Below are positions 16,591 to 18,994 of a stretch of 64,000 bases of DNA, piece by piece. Made by a program: the position numbers and the translations under genes. Source of the DNA: Hyphomicrobium sp. (GTDB lineage: Bacteria > Pseudomonadota > Alphaproteobacteria > Rhizobiales > Hyphomicrobiaceae); the NCBI GenBank assembly GCA_002928515.1, contig PERI01000004.1, forward strand, positions 124,001 through 188,000. The letters run 5' to 3'. Positions within the stretch are counted from its first letter, which is position 1; each line of letters starts with the position of its first letter. The notes beneath the pieces are model-generated. The model was given only the letters and a program-made list of their open reading frames with translations, was not told the DNA's origin and ran no database searches.

Positions 16591-17640
16591 CTACGACTTC
16601 GGTCTGGGCACCTCTAGGTCATCCAAATCGAGGCCGTGCACTGGGGCGTCGGTGCGTATAGCTGCCCTCAATCGTGCCGACCGGGCACGCGGGTTCAGAT
16701 CCAATTCACCTTTAGAAGGTGTTAACGGTCGCGAGTTAATAATTCGGAAACTTGGAGCATCGGATTTTATCAATTGCTCGGGCAAATGACGCGAGCCGCG
16801 CTGCTCTTTGCCGGAGCGTTGCGTCAAAAACCGTTTCACGATGCGGTCTTCGAGGCTGTGAAAGCTGACAACAACGAGGCGACCACCGGGTTTCAATATT
16901 TTTTCGGCGGCCGATAACGCTTGAGCCAATTCGCCCAGTTCATCGTTGATGTAAATGCGCAGCGCTTGGAAGGTGCGGGTTGCCGGATGCCGTCCGTCGA
17001 TCTTGCGTCCGTGGAAGACGCGCGAGACCACGTCGGCGAGTTCGAGCGTTCGCGACAGAGGTGTTATGGTGCGTGCTCTCACGATCGCGCGGGCGATGGA
17101 ACGGGATTTATGCTCCTCGCCATATGTATAGATCACGTTGGCAATGGTTTCTTCTTCAGCGCTGTTGAGAAAATCGGCGGCACTTTCCCCATCAGCGCTC
17201 ATGCGCATGTCGAGAGGGCCGTCATGCTGGAACGAGAATCCGCGTTCGGGCTGATCGATTTGCATGCTGGATATGCCGATATCGAGCACCACGCCATCGA
17301 CACTCATCGCACTATGATCCTGAGCGACTTCTGCCAGTTGCGAAAATGGCGACAACACCAACTGAAACCGGTCGGCGAATTCTTCGCACATCGGCTTGGC
17401 TGATTCGATGGCCGTGATATCGCGATCAAGGGCCAACACGCGGCAGTTGGCGGCTGCCAAAATGGCGCGCGTATAGCCGCCAGCGCCAAAAGTTCCGTCG
17501 ATATAAAGTTCACCGTCCGTGGGTGCGAGGCTCTCAAGAACTTCCGAGAGCAGCACGGGAATGTGGCGGGTGCGCTGGCCGTCTGACGTTATGTCAGTTG
17601 ACCCGCGCGCGGCGACCCCCGGCGCGCCGTCCCGCGTCAT
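16591..17640 (-). CDS. rsmH: 16S rRNA (cytosine(1402)-N4)-methyltransferase RsmH (MraW)
   Basis: RsmH methylates N4 of C1402 in the 16S rRNA decoding centre using SAM. HIPVLLSEVLESL opens the conserved region at about residue 25, YIDGTFGAGGYTRAIL is the SAM-binding loop near 48, and DGVVLDIGISSMQIDQPERG, RTFQALRIYINDEL and VVVSFHSLEDRIVKRF follow. The ATG at 17640 gives 349 residues and overlaps the mraZ stop by 4 bases. The open frame extends to 17778, but only inside mraZ in another frame, so the shorter start is preferred. Confidence 0.97.
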   Translation of the reverse strand: MTRDGAPGVAARGSTDITSDGQRTRHIPVLLSEVLESLAPTDGELYIDGTFGAGGYTRAILAAANCRVLALDRDITAIESAKPMCEEFADRFQLVLSPFSQLAEVAQDHSAMSVDGVVLDIGISSMQIDQPERGFSFQHDGPLDMRMSADGESAADFLNSAEEETIANVIYTYGEEHKSRSIARAIVRARTITPLSRTLELADVVSRVFHGRKIDGRHPATRTFQALRIYINDELGELAQALSAAEKILKPGGRLVVVSFHSLEDRIVKRFLTQRSGKEQRGSRHLPEQLIKSDAPSFRIINSRPLTPSKGELDLNPRARSARLRAAIRTDAPVHGLDLDDLEVPRPKS

Positions 17641-18143
17641 TCCCGTGCTCCCCCGGTGCCGCCGCCATCGCCTTTGTGAGCGTTGGCGTCGCGGCTCCCC
17701 GCGCCGAAAAGTTTTCTGGTGTTTTGCACTTTGCTGCGAGCTTCCCTGCGACGCTGTTCGAAGCGTCCGGGTTCCCACATTTGAAACTTGTCGCCAAGGC
17801 CGACAAACGTGACTGCGGCGTCAAGACCGGCGTGCGCGCGAAGCGCTTCAGGAAGGACGATGCGACCGTCGCCGTCGATCGAGAGAACCTGGACGTCGCC
17901 ATAGAGTGCGACAGACAGCTCGTCGCGCTCGTCCGAATAGTCCGGCAAGCCGCTGAGAAGCCCGTCGATCTTCTTTGCAAGTCTTTCGCCGCCTGCATCG
18001 AGCGCTGGAGCATCGAGCGAGGGGTAGCAATAGACGCCGCCTGCGTAGCCGTCGCGCTCAAGGACAGCGCGGAACGCGGCTGGAATGGAGACCCTGCCTT
18101 TGGCGTCGATCTTGTTTGTGAATGTCGAGACAAAGCGGTCCAT
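17637..18143 (-). CDS. mraZ: Transcriptional regulator MraZ
   Basis: MraZ is a ring-forming AbrB-fold DNA-binding protein that controls the dcw operon in the bacteria studied. The 168-residue product starts MDRFVSTFTNKIDAKGRVSI, the first of two SpoVT/AbrB-like repeats. The second is DVQVLSIDGDGRIVLPEALR at about residue 85. I used the ATG at 18143 because it matches the family N-terminus; the frame stays open to 18548 but upstream is hairpin-rich leader. A GGAGG lies about 20 bases before the ATG, further than usual, and an AGGG touches it, so initiation is not canonical. The last residues after about 145 are a Gly/Ala-rich tail. Confidence 0.95.
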   Translation of the reverse strand: MDRFVSTFTNKIDAKGRVSIPAAFRAVLERDGYAGGVYCYPSLDAPALDAGGERLAKKIDGLLSGLPDYSDERDELSVALYGDVQVLSIDGDGRIVLPEALRAHAGLDAAVTFVGLGDKFQMWEPGRFEQRRREARSKVQNTRKLFGAGSRDANAHKGDGGGTGGARE

Positions 18144-18185
18144 CCCTGTTTTCGAATTTCGCCTCCACGCAGAACTTTTTGCTTT

Positions 18186-18226
18186 GGCCCTGGCGACTCC
18201 CCTCCGGGGAGCCGGCCGCCAGGGCC
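18186..18226 (-). other. Leader hairpin 1 upstream of mraZ (twin of 18244-18284)
   Basis: A perfect 10-bp outer stem (18186-18195 with 18217-18226), an inner 6-bp stem (18197-18202 with 18206-18211) and a 3-base loop lie 43 bases before the mraZ start. Read on the mraZ strand, the internal loop is GCCGG on the 5' side and a single T on the 3' side. Hairpin 2 has exactly the same layout with different stem sequence. The position makes it part of the untranslated leader if the promoter lies near 18400. Function is unknown. Confidence 0.8.
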
Positions 18227-18243
18227 GGAAGTGAGTCTCGTTT

Positions 18244-18284
18244 GGCGCTTCCGACTCTCGTTCCGAGAGCCGGCCGGAAGCGCC
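18244..18284 (-). other. Leader hairpin 2 upstream of mraZ (twin of 18186-18226)
   Basis: The outer stem is 10 bp (18244-18253 with 18275-18284), the inner stem is 6 bp (18255-18260 with 18264-18269), and the loop is 3 bases. The internal loop is the same as in hairpin 1: GCCGG opposite T on the mraZ strand. Three outer and two inner base pairs differ from hairpin 1, and each difference keeps pairing on both sides. The flanks are also shared: TCCGG overlaps the 5' edge and AAA follows the stem. This argues for a conserved RNA (or cruciform) structure instead of chance. Confidence 0.8.
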
Positions 18285-18315
18285 GGACGATGCCTTCGAC
18301 ACCGGTTTTGGAGGC

Positions 18316-18368
18316 CCGTGGCGGTCGCTGGGTCTGGGCCCTCTTTCCAGACCCGCGCCCAGCCACGG
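18316..18368 (-). other. Leader hairpin 3 upstream of mraZ
   Basis: Nested inverted repeats: CCGTGGC/GCCACGG (18316-18322, 18362-18368) outside GGGTCTGG/CCAGACCC (18330-18337, 18347-18354), with a 9-base loop. The intervening internal loop can partly pair. It is the promoter-proximal member of the three leader hairpins but does not share the twin architecture. Confidence 0.7.
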
Positions 18369-18395
18369 AACTCGACCCGGTGCGGTCGGGCCATC

Positions 18396-18430
18396 ATGGG
18401 ATAACATGGGTTTTGATGGTCGTAAATGGT
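18396..18430 (-). promoter_or_regulatory. Putative MraZ operator and overlapping dcw promoter
   Basis: On the plus strand the block reads ATGGG, ATGGG, ATGGT, ATGGT at an exact 10-base period (TGGK at 18397, 18407, 18417 and 18427). MraZ of enterobacteria and mollicutes is known to bind TGGGN repeats separated by 5 bases, which is this spacing. On the mraZ strand a sigma70-like promoter overlaps it: TTTACG (18421-18426), 17 bases, TATCCC (18398-18403). Overlap of operator and promoter would fit autorepression. The repeats point away from mraZ, opposite to what I recall for other species, and the promoter is a guess from sequence. Confidence 0.5.
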
Positions 18431-18501
18431 TTGTTAATGATATTTGCCGGGGAGCTGTGGATTTCTCGATGAGATGCCAGCCGTTGGCCGATTTCAGACG
18501 C

Positions 18502-18533
18502 AAAAAGCCCGCGAGGACTTCTCCCCGCGGGCT
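18502..18533 (-). terminator. Rho-independent terminator of rnpB
   Basis: On the minus strand an 8-bp GC-rich stem (AGCCCGCG with CGCGGGCT, 18526-18533 and 18506-18513) is followed by a run of T residues (18502-18506). It begins 30 bases past the mature 3' end of RNase P RNA. It separates rnpB transcription from the dcw leader, so the dcw operon should have its own promoter. Confidence 0.85.
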
Positions 18534-18562
18534 AAGCTGCTCTCGCAACTTTTGAATGAATT

Positions 18563-18994
<432 letters not shown>

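Follow-up and report, generated by a model that had tools for sequence, protein, structure and literature searches.

Twin hairpins upstream of mraZ in Hyphomicrobium: probable copies of a dispersed palindromic repeat, beside a predicted dcw leader RNA

Two neighbouring hairpins in the leader of the dcw operon of Hyphomicrobium sp. are very probably a pair of copies of a palindromic DNA repeat that is dispersed, non-autonomous and found in Hyphomicrobium as well as other Hyphomicrobiaceae. Copies of the repeat are dispersed and of patchy occurrence, vary in number and orientation, and lie in frame within protein genes, in a genome that encodes no RAYT. The best reading of the family is a new palindromic repeat resembling the Rickettsia palindromic elements (RPE) and the REPs. 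Just upstream of the hairpins in the leader lies a separate structured element, not of the repeat family, that is probably a true leader RNA. The hairpins and their surroundings within the window, which is the whole stretch of 64,000 nucleotides that was analysed, are listed in Table 1.

Table 1. Features of the mraZ leader region, in window positions.
Feature	Position	Strand	Details
mraZ, first gene of dcw operon	17640-18143	-	start codon at 18143; contig 141640-142143
palindromic repeat copy A	18186-18226	.	outer arms 18186-18195 / 18217-18226; inner arms 18197-18202 / 18206-18211; loop 18203-18205
palindromic repeat copy B	18244-18284	.	outer arms 18244-18253 / 18275-18284; inner arms 18255-18260 / 18264-18269; loop 18261-18263
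conserved structured leader RNA candidate	18312-18391	-	models R2/R3; not of repeat family
promoter-like TTTACG + ATCCC block	18398-18426	-	overlaps CCCAT repeats
intrinsic-terminator-like site after rnpB	18506-18533	-	upstream boundary of leader region
rnpB, RNase P RNA class A	18560-18993	-	RF00010, 297 bits; upstream neighbour, same strand as mraZ

The initial annotation of this DNA described two hairpins of 41 nt, separated by 17 nt, built to one plan and differing by five matched pair changes; its coordinates and anatomy are exact. On the + strand, hairpin A reads GGCCCTGGCG-A-CTCCCC-TCC-GGGGAG-CCGGC-CGCCAGGGCC and hairpin B reads GGCGCTTCCG-A-CTCTCG-TTC-CGAGAG-CCGGC-CGGAAGCGCC. The common plan consists of an outer stem of 10 bp, an inner stem of 6 bp and a loop of 3 nt; on the mraZ strand, GCCGG faces a T. 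A and B differ at three pairs of the outer stem and two of the inner, and 5/5 remain Watson-Crick. The sequence shared by the two copies, 47 nt at 77 % identity, is longer than had been stated, and includes TTT before the hairpin and GGA after it. Folding of the twin region on the mraZ strand gives -68.9 kcal/mol (z -4.5, with 0 of 200 dinucleotide shuffles as good), and the + strand is equally foldable (z -5.1). As an intrinsic terminator the twin hairpins lack a T-run directly 3' of the stem on the gene strand; the sole - strand site returned by the terminator scan is the one after rnpB.

A 23-nt core of the repeat, with 14 fixed bases, has 10 zero-mismatch sites in the 2.92-Mb genome from which the window comes, above chance. 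Only close matches count, as a scan of the same genome with two mismatches allowed gives 27 sites against 32 for a reversed-pattern control. Within the window, a scan for the core that tolerates up to three mismatches gives 10 sites, against 10.4 in shuffles; this is no excess, and only the two perfect matches count there. Copies from this genome, 11 in all, were used to construct a covariance model, R1, against which copy A scores 78.5 bits and copy B 68.4 bits, both being among the model's own sequences. A search of the genome with R1 returned 15 matches; these include the 11 sequences from which R1 was built, and the three at the bottom of the list score weakly, at 43 to 29 bits. Two of these matches are at mraZ and the other 13 lie elsewhere, and a BLAST search agrees. 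Copies away from mraZ had been named in the initial annotation as a test of a leader-specific element, an idea that loses its footing with 13/15 matches elsewhere; the reading as a REP-like mobile palindrome, offered there among others, gains support from the same scatter.

The conserved repeat unit is about 55 bp long and consists of the 41-nt hairpin and its flanks; flank base counts over 74 copies reveal a T-tract to one side of the hairpin and a GGA-like sequence to the other. The sequence of the outer stem is free, while the A / CCGGC internal loop is almost fixed. CGACTC and AGCCGGCCG are invariant in 11/11 aligned copies from the genome, copies that were found through that core. A triple array of the repeat stands between rplL and rpoB, and a further copy between rpmD and rplO (genes named by eye). 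All six leader and spacer copies of this genome (mraZ, rplO, rpoB) have one orientation relative to the genes. One copy each lies in frame within ileS, a terminase gene (TerL) and a portal gene, and the latter two look gene-transfer-agent-like (GTA), a label given by eye. In a permuted tmRNA gene (locus L006, 1385-1763), a repeat copy at 1491-1531 falls in the segment that is removed, with the acceptor end on one side of it and the coding piece on the other.

The palindrome is open in both directions and reads GDSPxxSRPP or GGRLxxGESP, depending on orientation. In IleRS the insert of this genome sits at the position of a 21-residue gap in a solved IleRS, and a recognisable copy is present at this loop in 12 of the 22 Hyphomicrobium genomes, this one included (the 23 ileS loci gave 13 matches, but that of L252 is elsewhere in the locus and not at the loop). 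The IleRS loop is an insertion-tolerant site, because other coding repeats occupy the same loop in other species: HPSPLPASGERG-like repeats, SPWGEAGAAGAGEG and RGNDASEG arrays are seen there among ileS loci L233-L256. Further Hyphomicrobium loci carry copies in frame in genes for MazG, UvrA, UvrB, TerL and portal proteins. GTA-like terminase and portal genes contain in-frame copies in this genome and in another Hyphomicrobium (L003, L011 and L167, with L116 assigned by eye), and one terminase gene of L167 has three. An ORF filter, which is rough and includes spurious frames, places 33 of 84 copies within a coding-like ORF; the claims for coding inserts rest on 10 inspected ORFs, two of which (L124, L169) matched no family.

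Matches to the repeat were found in all 22 Hyphomicrobium genomes, from one to at least 96 each, the high counts being lower bounds; the single match of genome G003 is weak and does not pass the stricter limit of E 1e-6. Outside the genus, 6 of 14 other genomes of the family have the repeat, and 0 of 24 genomes of other families. In a larger draw, at E 1e-6, it was identified in 55 of 103 Hyphomicrobiaceae genomes, representing 15 of 25 genera, with 48 genomes returning no match at that limit. Plasmid and phage records gave no match to the hairpin pair at E 1e-5. In an exact-pattern scan of named genomes, 46 of the 80 matches listed are titled Hyphomicrobium, and a few occur in unrelated phyla, as chance would give. 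The RAYT family (PF01797) was found in one of the 22 genomes of the genus and is absent from the genome under study, in a search that was positive in 5 of 14 control genomes. Our literature search, judged by titles and the beginnings of abstracts, turned up no description of the repeat for Hyphomicrobium.

Every one of the 22 genomes has mraZ, and 17 of the 22 mraZ leaders carry the repeat, with 37 copies in total and 0 to 5 per leader. Twenty-one copies point in the sense of mraZ and 16 against it (p 0.51), and the spacer before the mraZ start codon lengthens with copy number (rho 0.73). Occupancy of 17/22 leaders is far above what would be seen if tens of copies were scattered evenly over 3-5 Mb, although shared ancestry contributes a caveat to this comparison. 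With copies in 17/22 leaders, 0 to 5 in number and 21:16 in orientation, the mraZ leader is therefore a frequent landing place in which number, place and strand are not conserved. The twin hairpins accordingly have neither the fixed gene context nor the fixed strand or number by which a cis-regulatory leader RNA is recognised. A hot spot for the repeat, or some use of it, at mraZ leaders may yet exist.

The matched changes in the two arms had been taken to mean that selection has kept structure. The 46 Hyphomicrobium loci of the exact-pattern scan were run through the repeat model, yielding 84 copies, of which the 10 with fewer than 11 of 16 pairs were left out of pair counts. The 74 remaining copies contain 1095 Watson-Crick pairs, 15 G:T pairs and 74 other mismatches. 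G:T thus makes up 15 of 89 non-Watson-Crick pairs, matching the 2 in 12 expected if all mismatches were equal; in the model-fitted repeat alignment, G·U accounts for 24 of 99 non-Watson-Crick cells, slightly above chance. In RNA structures, G·U pairs are common as intermediates. Because G·U is no commoner here than other mismatches, the palindrome is kept or generated at the DNA level. Across the 84 copies there are 270 two-sided against 17 one-sided changes, a result for cells reached by 0 of 500 shuffles; compensated pairs number 12, a count reached by 37 of 500 shuffles. Pure decay does not explain this very strong covariation between copies; it calls for copying or templating of some kind, or else for a constraint on the palindrome.

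In genomes about 92 % identical to one another, an element is usually found at the same sites; some sites are empty and some hold a different palindrome (by eye). Turnover of the repeat is slow, because most placed sites in three near relatives are still occupied. We saw no transposition that left a clean target duplication, and from the differences seen in presence and absence we infer that copies move. Orthologous sites numbered 17, of which three could not be placed and one, near 97822 and with several copies, was dropped; the start points of two were moved by hand. Thirteen sites entered the comparison, and four passed a filter requiring at least 12 of 16 pairs in both genomes, on the same strand. 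Intact orthologous copies show nine one-arm and three two-arm changes among 96 pairs, a small sample. Their hairpins are identical at 226 of 246 positions and the flanks at 1092 of 1238 (six genome pairs, four sites), and so diverge about alike; an early impression that hairpins are hyperdivergent at orthologous sites was gone once identities were counted. To infer RNA selection from matched arms is not justified here, because G:T is not favoured and one-arm changes outnumber two-arm changes among near relatives; that selection has kept structure is not shown. As separate observations, a copy nested inside another occurs in genome G001 near position 296240, partial tandem units are seen also, and at L053 1501-1582 a repeat copy has its inner stem-loop swapped for an unrelated palindrome.

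Three other explanations of the hairpins were weighed against this evidence. The initial annotation had suggested a tandem riboswitch-like element or a protein-binding leader, and the location of the hairpins within the inferred mRNA leader, their very stable fold and the presence of at least one copy in 17/22 leaders of the genus (with shared ancestry again to be borne in mind) are what a cis-acting dcw leader element would predict. This explanation is nonetheless highly improbable: 13 of 15 copies in the genome are elsewhere, three of them in frame in protein genes, and the same hairpins occur in unrelated genes; 5 of 22 leaders have no copy, and number, position and orientation vary in the rest; reversing a copy swaps its internal loop; and no terminator-like site was found on the mraZ strand of the leader. 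It is also quite unlikely that a host protein of chromosome organisation, replication or recombination uses the palindromes as DNA sites, which have been kept where they are useful. Pairing kept at the DNA level, the many genomes with copies, and the invariant CGACTC and AGCCGGCCG motifs, subject to the way in which those copies were found, would suit such sites, but copy number ranges from 0 to 96 between genomes, 48 of 103 family genomes have no match at the limit used, the outer stem is free in sequence, insertion within the ileS, uvrA and uvrB frames is hard to explain, and intact copies in near relatives diverge at about the rate of their flanks.

Quasipalindrome correction is template switching during replication, and a process of this kind could produce matched changes in both arms of copies that were seeded once and have little true mobility. 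It would account for the almost exclusively two-sided changes among copies, without G:T excess, and for nested and partial tandem units. Copies in unrelated genes across genera require spread, however, and the excess of one-arm over two-arm changes in near relatives, 9 to 3, runs against it, so that we regard this explanation as unlikely.

For the preferred reading, a dispersed palindromic repeat, we propose the following model. The unit has a T-rich tract on one side of a 41-bp imperfect palindrome (10 + 6 bp) and a short GGA-like tail on the other. Copies would be gained, lost, replaced and added in tandem wherever some 50 extra bases are tolerated, namely in operon-internal spacers, 5' leaders, gene ends, the removed segment of tmRNA, and protein loops, where they would be read through in frame on either strand. 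The mobiliser may be a trans-acting enzyme or a replication-linked copying process. The two copies in the mraZ leader would occupy and lengthen the spacer between the conserved leader RNA and the start codon, and would have no strand-specific regulatory role beyond forming very stable RNA hairpins.

The block just upstream of the twin hairpins behaves differently from the repeat. It is present in 22/22 leaders of the genus, and its model finds one match each in 79 of the 103 family genomes, in 20 of 25 genera. In all 53 loci inspected, out of the 79 matching genomes, mraZ is downstream of the match; these loci are the 22 genus leaders, which were fetched by mraZ, plus four, seven and twenty others. 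The candidate RNA consists of a 5-bp hairpin with a CCGCA loop followed by a long interrupted hairpin with an apical GAGGGC; these two loops show almost no variation, nor does a GGCGC/GCGACCGCC internal loop. Its structure was predicted from a MAFFT alignment of 20 genus sequences, in which compensation is seen at six pairs, a number reached in 1 of 500 shuffles, while the number of further pair types is not above shuffles (130/500). Three alignments were used: A4, with 20 of the 22 genus leaders after removal of two near-duplicates; A6, with 18 of these plus four from the family; and A8, with 49 of the 53 loci. In the alignment of 49 sequences, which is fitted to the model, standard pairs fill 96.3 % of pair cells, and two-sided changes are found at 15 of 25 pairs, in 105 cells; 0 of 500 shuffles reach any of these measures. 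G·U accounts for 62 of 107 non-Watson-Crick cells, unlike in the repeat. One copy, the same gene downstream and a covarying structure are the marks of a cis-regulatory leader, and 18312-18391 has all three. It is probably a real dcw leader RNA, as predicted from comparison of sequences, and the initial suggestion of a structured RNA in the dcw leader is probably right for this block, while it is not supported for 18186-18284.

Searches beyond the family found no match in sets of 199 and 397 genomes of the order, under strict filters and with only 23 and 11 candidates per genome scored, by which weak relatives could be missed. When 27 leaders of other families were searched without filters, there was one correctly placed match (L397, 24.9 bits, E 0.022) and two weaker ones, and the leader of L396 appears similar by eye. 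A diverged form may therefore exist in sister families. Rfam 15 returned no family at gathering score for the leader, and at low stringency only matches far below gathering scores. The papers listed for mraZ together with leaders, structured RNA, UpsM/dcw or Hyphomicrobium gave no description of the candidate.

The promoter-like block lies immediately upstream. The pattern TT[GT]AC[GT], 16-18 nt, NATCCC is found in 25 of 26 mraZ leaders scanned; a sigma-70 consensus scan of 18100-18600 identified no promoter-like site. The transcript would start near 18390-18400. The CCCAT repeats resemble an MraZ box. A TTAA-N7-TT(A/G/T)(A/C) sequence at 18423-18437 (- strand), which resembles a CtrA box, overlaps the promoter-like block in 24 of 26 leaders. 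The gene rnpB is directly upstream of mraZ on the same strand (18506-18993 region), and a table of PMC2704228 has RNase P RNA adjoining mraZ in Pelagibacter too.

Taken together, we lean somewhat towards a model in which an undescribed cis-regulatory RNA, 18312-18391 on the - strand, stands at the head of the dcw operon in Hyphomicrobiaceae. This two-hairpin RNA, aptamer-like or protein-binding-like, would stand just downstream of a MraZ-box promoter and set the expression of the whole division and cell-wall cluster, while mobile palindromes would vary the free spacer to the ribosome-binding site and leave the RNA itself intact; sister families may have diverged forms of it. The block is a candidate structured RNA at the head of one of the best conserved operons of bacteria. 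The twin hairpins themselves carry a caution for those who hunt RNAs, as very strong compensatory change between neighbouring hairpins can stem from a repeat family.

Among known leaders, the mraW RNA motif heads the dcw operon in Actinobacteria, and is likewise a dcw leader; the initial annotation saw no evident relation to it, and no Rfam family reaches its gathering score in the leader. The nearest published leader to 18312-18391 is UpsM, an sRNA in the dcw 5' leader of Rhodobacteraceae (PMC5089854). UpsM stops at an intrinsic terminator that lies 84 nt before mraZ. Its authors regard leaders of this kind as exclusive to Rhodobacteraceae, and mention that the leader of Sinorhizobium meliloti is 170 nt long. 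Compared by description, both are extended structured leaders before mraZ that start near the promoter; the terminator of UpsM was not found in the leader studied here.

The repeat shares with REPs of the CGTC and GTAG types its short palindromes, many copies and copies within genes. CGTC REPs, as set out in PMC3733652, have a CGTC (or TGTC/CCTC) end tag, a stem of 8-9 bp and a loop of 4-5 nt; most of their families are alphaproteobacterial, intragenic copies occur, and the type has no dedicated transposase. Hyphomicrobium is not mentioned in the text consulted. The present repeat differs in having stems of 10 + 6 bp, a 1 x 5 internal loop and a 3-nt loop in place of a single stem of 8-9 bp. 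Membership of the CGTC type was rejected, as its end tag is absent from the flank counts and stem and loop sizes differ, and so was that of the GTAG REP/RAYT type, with no GTAG end tag in the flanks of 74 copies and RAYT confined to one of 22 genomes, not the one under study.

Insertion of an RPE in tmRNA has reportedly been seen as well. Hyphomicrobium are free-living bacteria, with genomes of 2.4-4.8 Mb in the present set, and the spread of the repeat can be tested in cultivable species of the genus. According to PMC10969869, RPEs are about 150 bp long, and nearly half lie in frame in unrelated genes. Compared by that description, the repeat differs from RPEs in its unit of about 55 bp, its own core and its host family, Hyphomicrobiaceae. 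Both are alphaproteobacterial palindromic repeats, and insertion in frame in unrelated genes is met here in those for IleRS, TerL, portal protein, MazG, UvrA and UvrB. RPE-like decoration of housekeeping proteins (IleRS, UvrA, UvrB, MazG) and of tmRNA thus occurs in Hyphomicrobium too, mostly without RAYT.
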